Source: Pedobacter sp. SYSU D00535
GTDB lineage: Bacteria > Bacteroidota > Bacteroidia > Sphingobacteriales > Sphingobacteriaceae
Assembly (NCBI RefSeq): GCF_017355855.1
Contig: NZ_JAFEWD010000003.1
Coordinates: 496,001-560,000 of the forward strand
DNA: 64,000 bases
Reading direction: 5' to 3'
The notes beneath the pieces are model-generated. The model searched no databases. It was given only the letters and a program-made list of their open reading frames with translations, and was not told where the DNA came from. Shown here piece after piece: positions 38,860 through 44,885 of this stretch (the stretch's first letter is position 1; every line of letters begins with the position of its first letter). A program made the translations under genes and the position numbers.

Positions 38860-41727
38860 ATGAATTTGAAAAAGGGAGTTCTTACGCTGGGAATGTCGAT
38901 AGCGACACTTACCGGTGTCTTTGCTCAAAGCACTACGACGAAGGAGGTTCAATACCTTTCCGGAAAAGATGCCAACAATACTGTTACCTGGGATTTTTGG
39001 GCAACAGGAGGAAGAAATAGCGGATTCTGGAGTAATATCGAGGTTCCCTCACACTGGGAACAGCAGGGCTTTGGTGGCTATAACTACGGACGCGATTATG
39101 TAACCTACGGTAAAAACTTCCGCTTTGAAGATGAGAAGGGTTTGTACAAGAAAGCCTTTACCGTACCCGATGCTTGGAGAGGAAAGGACATCTACATTGT
39201 TTTCGAGGGCTCGATGACAGATACCGAAGTGAAGATCAACGGTAAGTCGGCGGGACCGATCCATCAAGGGTCTTTTTATCGTTTCAAGTATAACATCAGC
39301 GACAAGATAAAATTTGGGCAGTTCAACTTACTGGAAGCCACCGTCAGCAAGATGTCGGCAGACGCCTCCGTGAATAATGCGGAGCGTCTGGCTGATTACT
39401 GGATCTTCGGCGGGATCTTCCGCCCTGTATATCTGGAAGCGCTTCCAAAAGAACATATTGATTGGACGGCTATCGATGCAAAGGCAAACGGCTCCTTTAA
39501 CATGAACGTCTATCTCAAAAATGCGCAGGCAGGAAGAGATGTGGTAGCAGAAATTGTGGATGCCAGGGGAACAGTGGTTGGAACGGCTACCGCTAAAACA
39601 GCAGGCGCAGATTCGCTGGTAAATCTAAAGACGAACATTAAAAAGCCAGCGCTTTGGACGGCTGAAACTCCAAATCTGTACACTGTTCGCGTGTCCATTC
39701 GCAACAACGGAAATACGGTGTATCAAACTTCAGATAAGTTCGGGTTCAGAACCATCGAGGTGAGGAAGCAGGATGGCATCTATGTGAACGGTACCAAAGT
39801 AAAGATGAAAGGGGTGAACCGCCACGTTTGGTGGCCGGAGACAGGTCGGGCAACCAATCCCAAAGCCGATCTGATGGATGCCAAACTTATCAAGGAGATG
39901 AATATGAACGCTGTTCGTTGCTCGCACTATCCTCCGGATAAGTACTTCCTTCAGCTTTGCGACTCGCTGGGTATTTATGTACTGGATGAATTGGCCGGCT
40001 GGCAGAAAGCCTATAGCACCAAGGCAGGGACACCGCTGGTGCGGGAAATGGTTATTCGTGATGTCAACCATCCTTCTATTATTCTTTGGAGTAACGGGAA
40101 TGAAGGTGGACATAACAAGGAGCTGGTAGACGATTACGCTAAATACGATCTCTCCAACCGTACAGTAATCCATGCTCATCACCGTCCGGGAAATGCCATC
40201 AACGGGATCGATGGTAATCACTACGAGGATTACTACAGTACACAAAAGATTCTGGCAGATACAAACATCTATATGCCAACGGAATTCCTGCACGCGCAGG
40301 ATGACGGCGGTGCTGCCTCTGGCCTTGCTGATTTCTGGGAGCTGCATTGGAACTCGAAAAAAGGGGCCGGTGGTTTTATATGGGATTTAGCAGACGAGGG
40401 CCTTGTAAGAACAGATCAGAACAATATTATCGATGTGAATGGAGTAAACGCTCCTGACGGCATCGTGGGTCCACACCGCGAAAAAGAAGGCAGCTATTAT
40501 GCGATCCGCGAAATCTACTCGCCGGTAAGAATTACGATGAAAAAGCTTCCGGCTAACTTCAAGGGAGAAATTCCGGTAGAAAACCGCTATCACTTTACCA
40601 ATTTGAATCAGCTTACTTATAAATACGAACTGATTAACTTCAACAAGAAGGAGTCGTACGCGGGTGGCTATACTTCTGCGGTCAAAGGAAATATTAAAGC
40701 TCCTAATGTAGCTCCTGTGGCCAAAGGTAACCTGAAAATTAATTTACCTGACGACTGGAAAAACTACGATGCCTTAACGTTAACCGCTGTAGATCCCCAT
40801 GGCAATGAGGTGTATACCTGGAGCTGGAAGGTGAAAGACAATGCTGCGTTGATAGCACCGTTAATGGCTTCTAAAGAGACTGAGGCGGTGACGGTTACAG
40901 AGGCCGACACCTTAGTGACAATGAAAGCGAACGGAATTGCAGTGACGTTTAACAAGCGTAATGGTATGCTCAGCAGTCTTGCCAACGATGCAAGTATGGC
41001 ACTTTCCTTTGGAAATGGACCGGTTCTGGTTAGCGGCAACGCCACTTTCAACGGACTGAAGCATTTCAAAGAGGGCAACAGCCACGTAGTGGAGGCCTCT
41101 TACACAGGAGATATGAAAGCTGTTCGCTGGAAAATGAACCCCAGTGGCTGGCTGGAGATGACTTACGAGTATACTCTTAACGGAGATTATCAATTTACTG
41201 GGATTAGCTTTAACTACCCTGAAAACTTTGTTCTGGGTGCAAAATGGTTAGGCAAAGGACCAAGCCGTGTTTGGAAGAACCGCCTGCAGGGAACGAGCTA
41301 TAATGTATGGCAAAACAGGAATAACAATACACACACGGGAAATGCTCCGTGGATCTACCCAGAGTTTAAAGGTTACTTCGCAGACATTACTTGGATCGAG
41401 ATGAACACGGTTCAGGGAAAGTTTACGGTGGCCACGCCGGATGAAGATATGTTTGTTCGCCTGTTTGATTTTTATGGATTGAGCGGTGCCAAACCTCATC
41501 CGGATCTTCCCGTTGGTAATATTTCGTTCCTTGACAGAATTCCACCAATCGGAACGAAGCTGGCCTTGAATATTAGTCCGAATTCACGCGTGCTTGGACC
41601 GCAAAGCGAGCTAAACCACGTGAACGGTGCAACAAAACGCACGCTTTACTTCTACTTCGGTATTCCGAAGCCGGAAGCAGAGAATCGCCAGTTCACGATG
41701 CCTAAAGAGAATATCCTGACGGATTAA
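38860..41727 (+). CDS. GH2 beta-galactosidase-like enzyme
   Basis: A 955-residue secreted GH2 protein (signal peptide to about residue 23). The order is sugar-binding domain (IEVPSHWEQQGFGGYNYG), Ig-like domains, TIM barrel (GVNRHVWWPETGR), then C-terminal beta-galactosidase small-chain-like domain (GKGPSRVWKNRLQG). The acid/base is Glu415 in SNGNEGGH and the likely nucleophile is Glu475 in MPTEFLHAQDDGG. It probably removes beta-galactose from RG-I galactan or arabinogalactan side chains, though other GH2 activities such as beta-glucuronidase are possible. It ends the enzyme block, followed by a strong terminator. Confidence 0.9.
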   Translation: MNLKKGVLTLGMSIATLTGVFAQSTTTKEVQYLSGKDANNTVTWDFWATGGRNSGFWSNIEVPSHWEQQGFGGYNYGRDYVTYGKNFRFEDEKGLYKKAFTVPDAWRGKDIYIVFEGSMTDTEVKINGKSAGPIHQGSFYRFKYNISDKIKFGQFNLLEATVSKMSADASVNNAERLADYWIFGGIFRPVYLEALPKEHIDWTAIDAKANGSFNMNVYLKNAQAGRDVVAEIVDARGTVVGTATAKTAGADSLVNLKTNIKKPALWTAETPNLYTVRVSIRNNGNTVYQTSDKFGFRTIEVRKQDGIYVNGTKVKMKGVNRHVWWPETGRATNPKADLMDAKLIKEMNMNAVRCSHYPPDKYFLQLCDSLGIYVLDELAGWQKAYSTKAGTPLVREMVIRDVNHPSIILWSNGNEGGHNKELVDDYAKYDLSNRTVIHAHHRPGNAINGIDGNHYEDYYSTQKILADTNIYMPTEFLHAQDDGGAASGLADFWELHWNSKKGAGGFIWDLADEGLVRTDQNNIIDVNGVNAPDGIVGPHREKEGSYYAIREIYSPVRITMKKLPANFKGEIPVENRYHFTNLNQLTYKYELINFNKKESYAGGYTSAVKGNIKAPNVAPVAKGNLKINLPDDWKNYDALTLTAVDPHGNEVYTWSWKVKDNAALIAPLMASKETEAVTVTEADTLVTMKANGIAVTFNKRNGMLSSLANDASMALSFGNGPVLVSGNATFNGLKHFKEGNSHVVEASYTGDMKAVRWKMNPSGWLEMTYEYTLNGDYQFTGISFNYPENFVLGAKWLGKGPSRVWKNRLQGTSYNVWQNRNNNTHTGNAPWIYPEFKGYFADITWIEMNTVQGKFTVATPDEDMFVRLFDFYGLSGAKPHPDLPVGNISFLDRIPPIGTKLALNISPNSRVLGPQSELNHVNGATKRTLYFYFGIPKPEAENRQFTMPKENILTD

Positions 41728-41744
41728 AAGAACTTAAGCAAAAA

Positions 41745-41777
41745 GGAAGGGAGCCCGAGAAATGGGCTCCTTTTTTG
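41745..41777 (+). terminator. Rho-independent terminator after GH2
   Basis: A perfect 7-bp GC-rich stem, GGAGCCC (41750-41756) with GGGCTCC (41764-41770), extendable by A-T and G-T pairs, followed by six T. It lies about 20 bp after the GH2 stop and closes the enzyme operon. Confidence 0.9.
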
Positions 41778-42325
41778 TTAACGGCGTTTCTGAGATGAAA
41801 ATGGCTTGCTTCATTCAGCATGACGCTTTGAAGTTGCGGTTGTCGTTTTGAGGCTCTGTCGTTCGGTATTCTATAAACGTTGCTGGTCTTCATTTGCCTT
41901 TTCTTTCTTCGTCATCCTGAACTGGTTTCAGGATCTCTTGAGTTATTGTTTTCTTGCAAGCCAACAGATGCTGAAATAAATTCAACATGACGATTGAAGT
42001 TGCGGTTGTGGTTTTTGTGGCTCTTTCGTTCAGCGTTCTATATACGCTTATCTTCGCCTGCCTTTTCTTCCTTCGTCATCCTGAAATTTACCCTGCACTT
42101 GTTTTAGGGCGAGTTTCAGGATCTCTTGAACTATTTTTTCTTGCAACCTCAAGAGATGCTGAAATAAATTCAGCATGACGTTTTGAAGTAGCGGTTGTGG
42201 TCCTTCAATCGCTTTCATCCTATAAATAGAAGCTCAATTGCTTATCTTTTCCTACTGCTTCTTTCTTCGTCATCCTGGAATTTACCCTGAACTTGTTTCA
42301 GGGCGAGTTTCAGGATCTCTTGAAC

Positions 42326-42681
42326 GTCTTTCTCTTAGCCATACCAGATCAAATCTCGTCGAACAAATCTCTCATCTCTGGATTAAATGAGCGGATGAGG
42401 TTTAGCTTCCATTCTCGGTGCCAATTTTTTAGCTGTTTCTCTCTTTCAATAGCATGAGTGATGTCCCCGATAACTTCGTAGTACACCAGGTATTTACATT
42501 TATATTTCTTGCTGAAGACAGAACCTTGGCCTTCTCTATGCTGATAGATTCCTTCGCGTAAGTCGCTGGTCACCCCGACATAAAGAATAGTACGCTGGAT
42601 ATTTGAGACGATGTAAACGTATCCGCCTTTGTGCATTAGGTTTAGTTTTACCTATAAAACTAATAATTTCCCGAGGTCTTC
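42326..42681 (-). mobile_element. GIY-YIG cassette replacing a repeat arm
   Basis: The third repeat unit has arm A (42268-42325) but no arm B. In its place is a 356-bp segment with the minus-strand GIY-YIG gene, after which the usual post-arm-B spacer resumes at 42682 (CTTTGAAGTAG). The exact fit between two repeat landmarks suggests the segment was inserted or exchanged as a unit. Mobility is inferred; no transposase is present. Confidence 0.4.
42349..42636 (-). CDS. Small GIY-YIG nuclease-domain protein
   Basis: A 95-residue single-domain GIY-YIG protein of the UPF0213/YhbQ-like type. The motifs are GYVYI (residues 5-9), LYVGVTSDL (18-26), a nearby Arg27, and IEREKQLKNW (63-72) containing the metal-binding Glu64. 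The domain is complete, so cleavage activity is possible. Small proteins of this type are abundant in Bacteroidota and their role is not settled. It is alone on the minus strand inside a palindromic repeat array, between terminator-bounded + strand operons. A functional link with the repeats, by cutting or spreading them, is a hypothesis only. Confidence 0.88.
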   Translation of the reverse strand: MHKGGYVYIVSNIQRTILYVGVTSDLREGIYQHREGQGSVFSKKYKCKYLVYYEVIGDITHAIEREKQLKNWHREWKLNLIRSFNPEMRDLFDEI

Positions 42682-43400
42682 CTTTGAAGTAGTCGTGGTT
42701 TTTTCTGGGCTGTATCGTTTTGGGCTTTATAAACGCTGCTGGTCTTCATTTGCCCTTCCTTCCTTCGTCATCCTGGAATTTCCTGCACTTGTTTCATGGC
42801 TGGTTTCAGGATCTCTTGAATTATTTTTTTCTTGCAATCTCAAGAGATGCTGAAATAAATTCAGCATGACGCTTTGAAGTTGCGGTTGTCGTTTTGAGGC
42901 TCTGTCGTTCAGTGTTCTATAAACGTTGCTGGTCTTCATTTGCCTTTTCTTTCTTCGTCATCCTGAACTGGTTTCAGGATCTCTTGAGTTACTGTTTTCT
43001 TGCAAGCTCAAGAGATGCTGAAATAAATTCAGCATGACGCTTTGATGTAGCGGTTGTGTTTTCGCAGCTCTGTCTTTTGCGGTTTTATAAAAGTTGTTGG
43101 TCTTCGCCTGCCTTTTCTTTCTCGTCATCCTGGAATTTACCCTGCACTTGTTTCAGGGCGAGTTTCAGGATCTCTTGAACTATTTTTTCTTGCAACCTCA
43201 AGAGATGCTGAAATAAATTCAGCATGACGCTTTGAAGTTGCAGTTTTAGCTTTTCGTGGCTCTGTCGTTCAGTGTTCTATAAACGTAATCAATGATTCGT
43301 AACTAGAAATTTACCACAGAACATACTTGTACAGGATAGTCTAAACCTCTTTTTTTATTAATCTTGAAATCTTATAACCAAGGTAATAAACTGTCTCTCT

Positions 43401-44885
43401 ATGCATGGAAAGGTGCAAGCTGCGCAGCCGGCTGATTTATTTCTTCGCCCACGAAGAAATACACGAATAATCCAATTAAGTAAACCACTTTTTGTGATTT
43501 TGTTGCTCTTGCAGTGCTCGGTCTTTTCAATACATGCCGCAGACCCTAGTTGGGCCTCAAAAGTGGGAGTAAAGAAAATCAAGGTAAAAAAGCACGTGTT
43601 TAGCGTAAATGAATTTGGTGCAGTGAATGATGGAAAAACGATTAACACGGCAGCCATCCAAAAAGCAATAGACGCCTGTGCAGCCAAGGGGGGAGGAACA
43701 GTAGTCTTTTCCCCGGGCCAATACTTGACAGGTTCAATATTCGTGAAAAAAAATGTGTTCCTGCAGATCGATAAAGGTGTCGAACTACTGGGCAGCCAGG
43801 ATTTAAAAGACTATCCGGATATCGATACGCGGGTGGCAGGCATCGAAATGAAATGGCCGGCAGCTCTGATCAATATTATCGGGCAGAAAAACGCAGGGGT
43901 ATTGGGAGATGGGGTGGTAAATGCACAAGGAAAGCCTTTCTGGGACGCCTACTGGGCGCTAAGAAAAGCCTACGAACCAAAGAAACTTCGCTGGATAGTT
44001 GATTACGACGCCAAGCGCCCCAGAACCTTACTGGTAGCAGATTGTGAGAACGTGCTGGTGAAAGGGCTGACACTGCAGCAAGCCGGATTCTGGACCGTTC
44101 ACGTGCTATACTCCAAATACATCACGGTGGATGGAGTCACCATCCAGAATAACATTGGGGGCCATGGACCAAGTACGGATGGCATCGACATCGACTCCTC
44201 TTCCTGGGTGTTGGTGCAAAATTCAGATATCGACTGTAACGACGACAACTTCTGCATCAAGTCGGGTCGTGACTGGGATGGTCTCCGCGTGAACCGTCCT
44301 GCCGAATACATCGTCATTCGCGACTGTGTTTCCCGCAAAGGAGGAGGCCTCATTACTTTCGGAAGTGAAACTTCGGGTGGGATGAAGCATATTCTCGCCA
44401 AAAACCTAAAAGCAAACGGCACGGGAGTAGGTATTCGTTTTAAGTCGGCCAAAAACCGCGGCGGGACTGTAGAGGATATTTACATCGATAATATTCAAAT
44501 GACCGAGGTGGGGACAGCTTTGGAAATTACTCCAAACTGGAATCCATCTTATAGCTATTCTGCTTTACCTGCAGGTTACGACATCAATACAGTACCGGAA
44601 CACTGGAAAAAAATGCTTCAGCCGGTAGCTCCCGAAAAAGGTATACCCACCTTCAAAGATGTCTTTATCTCCAACATCAAGGCTGACAACGCGCGTAGAG
44701 CAATTTTTGCCGACGGTCTGGATGAGAAACCCTTGAAAAACTTCAACCTGGCAAACGTCAGTATCATCGCAAACAATGCCGGATCTATTAAAAACGCAAA
44801 AGACTGGGCGTTCAAAAATGTTAACATCACTGCAAAAGACAATAGTAAAATCACAGTAACAGCATCGGAAGGAGTAAACCCTTAA
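43401..44885 (+). CDS. GH28 family protein (polygalacturonase-like), 494 aa
   Basis: A 494-residue beta-helix protein with an unusually long N-terminal region before a hydrophobic segment (about residues 30-46, LFVILLLLQCSVFSIHA); no later Met offers a shorter start. GH28 motifs are STDGID (Asp260), CNDDNFCIKSGRD (Asp281/Asp282) and GIRFKS in place of R-I-K. The GHG histidine is replaced: R-K-G-G-G-L aligns with R-D-G-H-G-G of the other GH28 at 47267, putting Gly315 at the His position. Altered catalysis or substrate is possible. It opens the second enzyme block after the repeat array, 9 bp before PL1. Confidence 0.87.
   Translation: MHGKVQAAQPADLFLRPRRNTRIIQLSKPLFVILLLLQCSVFSIHAADPSWASKVGVKKIKVKKHVFSVNEFGAVNDGKTINTAAIQKAIDACAAKGGGTVVFSPGQYLTGSIFVKKNVFLQIDKGVELLGSQDLKDYPDIDTRVAGIEMKWPAALINIIGQKNAGVLGDGVVNAQGKPFWDAYWALRKAYEPKKLRWIVDYDAKRPRTLLVADCENVLVKGLTLQQAGFWTVHVLYSKYITVDGVTIQNNIGGHGPSTDGIDIDSSSWVLVQNSDIDCNDDNFCIKSGRDWDGLRVNRPAEYIVIRDCVSRKGGGLITFGSETSGGMKHILAKNLKANGTGVGIRFKSAKNRGGTVEDIYIDNIQMTEVGTALEITPNWNPSYSYSALPAGYDINTVPEHWKKMLQPVAPEKGIPTFKDVFISNIKADNARRAIFADGLDEKPLKNFNLANVSIIANNAGSIKNAKDWAFKNVNITAKDNSKITVTASEGVNP

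Follow-up and report, generated by a model that had tools for sequence, protein, structure and literature searches.

The closest described systems are REPtrons (REPIN-RAYT systems), in which a single-gene locus is bracketed by inverted REP hairpins with their GTAG tags pointing outward. The gene encodes a RAYT enzyme, an HUH/Y1 transposase; gene-less REP doublets (REPINs) are found elsewhere, and the type of REP tracks the type of enzyme. To our knowledge, the enzymes of repeat dispersal described so far are HUH transposases. The GIY-YIG nucleases are a classical homing family, which includes free-standing endonucleases of the I-TevI type.

A further group of repeats, the CGTC REPs, was defined by Di Nocera et al. 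(2013, PMC3733652) by a CGTC tag (or TGTC, CCTC) that is unpaired at one end, an AT-initial stem of 8-9 bp, a loop of 4-5 bases and an occurrence mostly as doublets with the tags outside (HH). They were reported from five phyla and include the neisserial dRS3 and the rickettsial RPE-4 and RPE-6 elements (PMC3733652). In the accessible portions of that paper the CGTC REPs are described as apparently without a dedicated transposase, and the authors propose that their own elements vanished early or that other transposases move them. No link between GIY-YIG genes and REPs was found among the matches listed in the open-licence PMC literature.

The window, a 64-kb stretch of DNA from Pedobacter sp. 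SYSU D00535, carries an array of repeats flanked by glycoside hydrolase genes of family 2 (ending at 41727) and family 28 (starting at 43401) (Table 1). A normal unit consists of arm A on the plus strand (CGTCATCCTGAA...TTCAGGATCTC), a spacer of 27-28 bp, and arm B on the minus strand (CGTCATGCTGAA...TTCAGCATCTC when read on its own strand). The palindromic repeat arms of the earlier note are real, and are more exactly CGTC-tagged REPs whose A and B forms resemble each other without being the same (stems CCTGAA vs GCTGAA). All 11 arms carry the CGTC tag; seven have the 8-bp AT stem and a 5-base loop, and the other four, which are A arms, have loops of 27-29 bases. Five of the six units are outward-tagged (HH) doublets. 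Apart from the four longer loops, the repeats agree with the CGTC REPs of Di Nocera et al. in tag, AT start, stem, loop and HH arrangement. They differ in that the accessible text of that paper reports no associated transposase gene, whereas a GIY-YIG gene is found here within the doublets or next to them. The array is not due to chance, because the rest of the 64-kb window, outside 41700-43400, is free of YGTC-AT hairpins (<=1 mismatch). The genome as a whole has 17 matches to the window's REP type, in five clusters on three contigs. A complex array at contig ends of the same genome (L042, G000:C8:47500-49803; L039, G000:C6:1-2500) contains CGTC REPs together with another type of repeat, GAAGTTCCTATCGTAGGTTCTGAGAACCGG..., and may be why the assembly breaks there.

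Unit 3 departs from this plan. Its similarity to the other units ends at about 42325; arm A is kept, arm B is absent, and a 356-bp piece (42326-42681) with a minus-strand GIY-YIG gene appears instead, as the earlier note had described. The spacer that otherwise follows arm B (CTTTGAAGTAG) restarts at 42682, the coordinate given there. The claim that the gene sits exactly in place of one arm is true of the window and fails as a rule: specific replacement of arm B was ruled out, as the gene lies between the two arms wherever both are found elsewhere. Because the arrangement with the gene between two arms recurs elsewhere, the missing arm B of unit 3 looks like local decay and not a defining trait.

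Table 1. Repeat arms, nuclease gene and related features of the array, in window coordinates.
Feature	Coordinates	Strand	Remarks
CGTC-tagged REP doublet array	41910..43229		six A arms (+), five B arms (-); doublet tags outward
REP arm A1	41910..41937	+	CGTCATCCTGAACTGGTTTCAGGATCTC
REP arm B1	41965..41992	-	
REP arm A2	42074..42125	+	long-loop form
REP arm B2	42153..42180	-	
REP arm A3	42268..42319	+	long-loop form; adjoins 3' end of GIY-YIG gene; without partner arm B
356-bp segment	42326..42681		in lieu of the remaining unit 3; bears the nuclease gene
GIY-YIG nuclease gene	42349..42636	-	stand-alone, 95 aa, PF01541
Spacer	42682..42765		resumes as if after arm B
REP arm A4	42766..42815	+	long-loop form
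REP arm B4	42844..42871	-	
REP arm A5	42956..42983	+	
REP arm B5	43012..43039	-	
REP arm A6	43123..43174	+	long-loop form
REP arm B6	43202..43229	-	

The 95-aa window protein matches Pfam PF01541 (E=2.8e-14), was matched by no NCBIfam model, and is predicted to fold as a bare GIY-YIG domain (mean pLDDT 94). In an alignment of 17 rows (A3), both Tyr columns and the Glu and Asn columns (8, 19, 66, 85) are invariant, and position 29 has Arg in every row (16 of 17) but that of the window protein, which has Gly. We take these Tyr, Tyr, Arg, Glu and Asn columns to be the catalytic positions, following the work on I-TevI. The set is shared by homing GIY-YIG endonucleases and the window's protein family, the window protein itself excepted. 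Since Gly stands at the otherwise conserved Arg position, this copy is probably inactive or catalytically impaired; with its arm absent and its Arg replaced, the window's copy of the unit has probably been damaged. I-TevI-type enzymes have the GIY-YIG catalytic domain and a selfish logic in common with the present genes. The contrast is that here 95 aa leave no separate DNA-binding domain, and that repeat arms flank the gene, which does not appear to interrupt a gene or intron. A search with the predicted fold placed 1zg2 (UPF0213) first, followed by the branched-DNA nuclease Slx1-Slx4 and the N-terminal domain of UvrC, all with modest scores (best E-value 1.7e-3). The sequence profile A1 matched 1zg2 (E=1.3e-7) and 1ywl (E=3.6e-5) among solved structures. 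Like the window protein, these UPF0213/COG2827 proteins are single-domain GIY-YIG proteins of ~95 aa (90-110 aa was the range applied). We take COG2827 to be the name for small GIY-YIG proteins of the window's type. The same name is used for three small genes of C. crescentus in the available text of PMC1839093. No repeat-related role of UPF0213/COG2827 was found among the matches listed in the open-licence PMC literature.

A profile of ten proteins retrieved at least 573 confirmed relatives, of which the best 80, taken by protein similarity alone, were used for an analysis of neighbourhoods. These represent 17 named phyla (25 Pseudomonadota, 23 Bacteroidota), with nine lacking an assigned phylum. 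The loci of this and the following comparisons are partly non-independent: L064 and L074 are one place in two species, and some genomes yield two loci. A strict detector (YGTC tag, 8-bp stem starting with AT, loop of 3-12, <=2 mismatches) was designed after the first loci of the window's family and before the 80-locus set; a loose detector for the 80 loci accepted any NGTC tag. A strict hairpin lies within 300 bp of 59 of the 80 genes, which span 12 of the 17 named phyla and 8 of the 9 relatives without one. The earlier note had named a lack of enrichment at repeat arms in relatives as the outcome that would refute its proposal, and the proposal survived this test: at <=1 mismatch a YGTC hairpin is found within 300 bp of 50 of the 80 genes. 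The density of such YGTC-AT hairpins there (103 in 46,352 bp) is 33-fold that found more than 1.5 kb away within these loci (23 in 341,140 bp). When any 4-mer was allowed as the tag, TGTC (63) and CGTC (40) came out on top near the genes, the next one reaching 20; by their letters, many of the lower-ranked tags are the same hairpins on the other strand, and TGTC was also first, at 15 of 433, among the hairpin tags far from genes. The association of small GIY-YIG genes with REPs is solid.

The REPs are placed in a preferred geometry around the genes. With the strict detector, an outward '+' REP is present upstream at 37/80 loci (median distance 22 bp) and an outward '-' REP downstream at 42/80 (median 11.5 bp); both sides are occupied at 26 loci and neither at 27. 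The corresponding inward counts are 20/80 and 15/80, with both at 5/80. With the loose detector, outward REPs are found on both sides at 32/80 and on either side at 54/80 loci (inward, 27/80 and 19/80, both 8/80), vs both sides in 7 of 1600 random windows and at 1 of 373 other short ORFs from the same loci. Altered outward REP pairs can be seen by eye at several of the 'neither' loci (L090, L125, L132, L134 and L141 among them) and stand outside these counts. Within the 26 two-arm loci, left and right arms have a mean similarity of 0.74, vs 0.28 between loci (0/5000 permutations), and are identical in eight. An intact homologue, from Sinorhizobium or another member of the Rhizobiales, is encoded next to CGTCATCCTCGGGCTTGACCCGAGGATCCA.

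In the window's family, 73 of 74 loci had a usable GIY-YIG frame (L069 was left out). Forty added loci, 33 of them from additional genomes, were chosen from the matches listed with their neighbourhoods unseen. The proteins form three groups, A, B and C, type C being a merger of two tRNA-linked clusters. A second detector, hp2, was made post hoc, after variants had been seen by eye, and at least one of its type-B matches, at L052, is chance-like. A REP lies within 300 bp of 24/25 type A genes by hp2 and 17/25 by the strict detector, of 20/28 and 15/28 type B genes, and of 2/20 and 1/20 type C genes. The tRNA genes are distributed in the opposite way, one being present within 600 bp at 0/25, 0/28 and 17/20 loci, respectively. 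At the Y1 transposase genes of the same family, a YGTC hairpin was found within 300 bp in 1/30 (strict) or 3/30 (hp2), and none of six loci with UvrC or other long GIY-YIG genes had a REP hairpin nearby. Types A and B together have outward REPs on both sides at 16/53 loci vs 2/500 control windows, and any hairpin within 300 bp at 44/53 vs 79/500 with a looser detector.

The type C genes form a subject of their own. Those at L043 (G000:C13:404500-410500), L053, L057, L067, L075, L200, L202, L204 and L207, as well as at L212, L220, L221, L224, L228, L231, L233 and L235, are tRNA-adjacent. In 13/20, the gene is bracketed by a direct repeat that overlaps a predicted tRNA or lies within 60 bp of it. 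Tandem copies with a period of ~343-361 bp are present at L043, L053, L075 and L200, and the tandem set of the window's genome adjoins two tRNA-Val genes. Type C appears to be a nuclease-linked duplication unit of a second kind.

Genes and repeats also go together across genomes. In 201 genomes of the window's family, type-B genes were found in 38 and type-B REPs in 66; the REP is present in 30 of the 38 genomes with the gene vs 36 of the 163 without it (Fisher, 8.7e-11), and the co-occurrence persists with genera as strata (p=3.4e-4). None of the 201 contains the type-B REP pattern in reversed form. Eight of the 38 gene-bearing genomes are without the strict REP pattern. One genome of genus g16 (G017) has 206 type-B REPs, while no type-B gene reached the threshold; either it has lost the nuclease gene, or its REPs are served by a diverged enzyme. 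REP distance and protein distance are correlated (84 of 113 loci with a REP; Mantel r=0.30, 0/2000 permutations), also upon shuffling within phylum, a stratification weakened in that eight phylum-less loci shared one label and window-family loci were taken as Bacteroidota. The covariation lies mostly within phyla (r=0.61), cross-phylum pairs alone being not significant (r=0.05, p=0.12).

Small GIY-YIG genes occur at three places in the window's genome, the window being one. At another (L001, G000:C6:43888), the gene is in a second CGTC array of different sequence, where by eye it stands in for part of a repeat unit. The third is a four-copy tandem (G000:C13:407027-408233) beside tRNA genes and without REPs, which was dropped as a REP-linked candidate and belongs to the type C clade with tRNA genes. 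One genome of the same genus (G002) has a single small GIY-YIG gene, 69% identical to the window's, which by eye comes directly after an arm A in a CGTC array whose arms escaped the strict detector. Its neighbour is an aminotransferase class IV gene, so it has a different chromosomal address from the window's gene. The strict detector missed every arm of L044, though these are plain by eye.

More distant replicons present variants of the same theme. In Neisseria gonorrhoeae (L193, NZ_CP119140.1), a small GIY-YIG frame, which the record's sparse gene table does not list, is situated in a CGTC REP array that fits the description of dRS3, which ties the pairing of GIY-YIG genes and REPs to long-known neisserial repeats. 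In the Novosphingobium plasmid pNL2 (L195) and two rhizobial plasmids (L192, L194), GIY-YIG genes are flanked, on a single side or on both, by REP variants that have CCTC tags or whose stems begin with GC instead of AT; these variants escape the strict detector. In the Planktothrix agardhii plasmid p1 (L196), a small GIY-YIG gene amid TGTC REPs has an MmeI-type restriction gene on one side and the DISARM gene drmA on the other. The phage homologues comprise ten records, all from Rhizobium phages and none covering 80% of the query; one (L197) is packed among other phage genes.

The limits of the element can be read from repeated copies. Tag-bounded ends are seen in one genome, a member of the Rhizobiales (G254), in which BLASTN aligns two copies on different contigs (L279, L281; 375 and 373 bp) at 85% identity. 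Their homology starts one base outside the left CGTC and stops at the GTC of the right tag (GGTC in L279), and the flanks are unrelated (0.56 and 0.48 identity over 100 bp). In a Parcubacteria genome with two copies 2.5 kb apart, the match starts exactly at a REP tag; the two arms of each copy are more like each other than like the arms of the other copy, and the REP sequences differ between copies.

Presence and absence between relatives point in the same direction. In genus g13 of the window's family, 12 of 30 places between a deiminase gene and fabG hold a GIY-YIG gene; in the 11 that were printed, a REP or worn REP stands before and after the gene by eye, the detector (<=3 mismatches) having flagged a REP at 4 of the 12. 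Seven places (L168, L171, L174, L177, L179, L187, L188) are short intervals without gene or REP, and three (L161, L162, L182) have a doublet or remnants without the gene, again by eye; six have other DNA and two are unreadable. Among rhizobia, S. meliloti Ak57 and Sinorhizobium K101 each lack a unit that the other has; the pieces covered in both are ~96% identical. K101 was aligned at the first place; at the second, C101 (to which K101 is 99.9% identical there) supplied the unit and Ak57 was aligned, M103 being judged by coverage only. Since both empty alleles keep REP remnants and have ragged junctions, insertion and deletion are indistinguishable here, and the same features make loss by recombination between repeats a possible reading of this polymorphism. 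No target-site duplication was identified. Beside the S. meliloti gene is a REP doublet whose spacer contains, by eye, just the 3' end of a nuclease gene, and which may represent an internal deletion of the type that would yield gene-less doublets. The suggestion of the earlier note that the gene moves with the repeats gains support from the tag-bounded copies and from presence and absence between relatives; movement of gene and arms as one unit is well supported.

The reading preferred here, at a probability of about 0.7, is that the unit 3 segment is a decayed REP-GIY-YIG-REP mobile unit whose nuclease disperses it together with gene-less doublets. The unit would consist of two inverted CGTC- or TGTC-tagged REP hairpins with the tags outside and a gene for a nuclease of ~95 aa between them, ~350-450 bp in all. 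The nuclease would recognise the hairpin of a REP, either as an extruded form or as single-stranded DNA in replication, and nick it at the CGTC tag or next to it. Repair or recombination would then copy the released doublet, or the unit with its gene, into new sites. Internal deletion would give rise to gene-less doublets, the non-autonomous form, as REPINs are to RAYT genes. The sequences show the anatomy, the strong enrichment in many phyla, the matching arms of a locus, the tag-bounded ends in two copies of one genome, and units present or absent among relatives; hairpin recognition, tag cleavage and dispersal by the nuclease are what we infer. The likeness to REP-associated transposases drawn by the earlier note holds for the logic (a single gene bracketed by inverted, outward-tagged hairpins, gene-less doublets elsewhere, REP type tracking enzyme type) and not for membership: the enzyme is a GIY-YIG nuclease and not an HUH/Y1 transposase, and the tag is CGTC/TGTC and not GTAG. 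The system works like RAYT/REPIN and is not a member of it.

Alternatively, a selfish free-standing homing endonuclease might cut an existing REP doublet, between its arms or close to them, and repair would copy the gene in, the REPs being the target and not the ends of a transposable unit. Such behaviour is in keeping with the classical role of the GIY-YIG family, with the position of the gene between the arms wherever both are found, and with the Parcubacteria copies, whose REPs differ while their own arms match, as if the gene had entered different doublets. Homing is nevertheless unlikely. Both arms pass the hairpin detector, and hence are unsplit, at 26 of the 80 loci, and no gene interrupting its recognition site was met there; copies at unrelated sites have both REPs and gene in common, up to the tags; and the seven short g13 intervals are empty sites without a REP by eye. 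Less probable still is a host maintenance enzyme like Slx1 or SbcCD that resolves REP hairpins or cruciforms, with the REPs moved by other means. The nearest folds, UPF0213 (1zg2) and then Slx1-Slx4, agree with it at modest E-values, as does the SOS box reported for one Caulobacter COG2827 gene in the available text of PMC1839093. A repair gene acting in trans, however, need not lie between its own substrates, and a mobile element better fits a gene that lies inside the doublet at many loci, occurs in several copies per genome, is patchily present, and belongs to a unit present or absent between relatives.

That the gene is a passenger, with REP-rich intergenic regions serving as safe harbours or recombination hot spots for any small accessory gene, is very improbable, although several of the gene neighbourhoods are entire REP arrays and some hairpin is met within 300 bp in 79/500 random windows of the family loci by the looser detector. 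Other short ORFs are flanked on both sides in 1/373 cases; hairpins adjoin Y1 genes at 1/30 (3/30) and type C genes at 1/20 (2/20) vs 17/25 (24/25) for type A and 15/28 (20/28) for type B; and the types of protein and REP covary. There is next to no likelihood that RAYT-type or IS200 transposases move the REPs and that the GIY-YIG gene is incidental. Y1_Tnp proteins are encoded in 109 of the 201 family genomes, but no Y1_Tnp match (E<=0.001) was found in the window's genome or two genomes of the same genus, and a YGTC hairpin is near 1/30 Y1_Tnp loci. The accessible part of Di Nocera et al. (PMC3733652), moreover, has the CGTC REPs apparently transposase-less.

With the mobile REP-GIY-YIG-REP unit as the preferred reading, the small GIY-YIG family is the best candidate for the dedicated enzyme of the CGTC REPs. 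It is more likely than not, though less so than the reading of unit 3 itself, that these nucleases are the missing enzymes of the CGTC REPs and define a class of minimal mobile element that spreads itself and its gene-less doublets in many phyla, including dRS3 and possibly RPE. One of the two large REP superfamilies, described as transposase-less in what is accessible of the 2013 publication, gains a candidate enzyme in this way, and a 95-aa nuclease between the arms makes the question of the missing enzyme testable with one purified protein and one set of oligonucleotides. If true, the proposal would give a function to the common annotation 'GIY-YIG nuclease family protein' and would add a further class of enzyme to those that disperse repeats.
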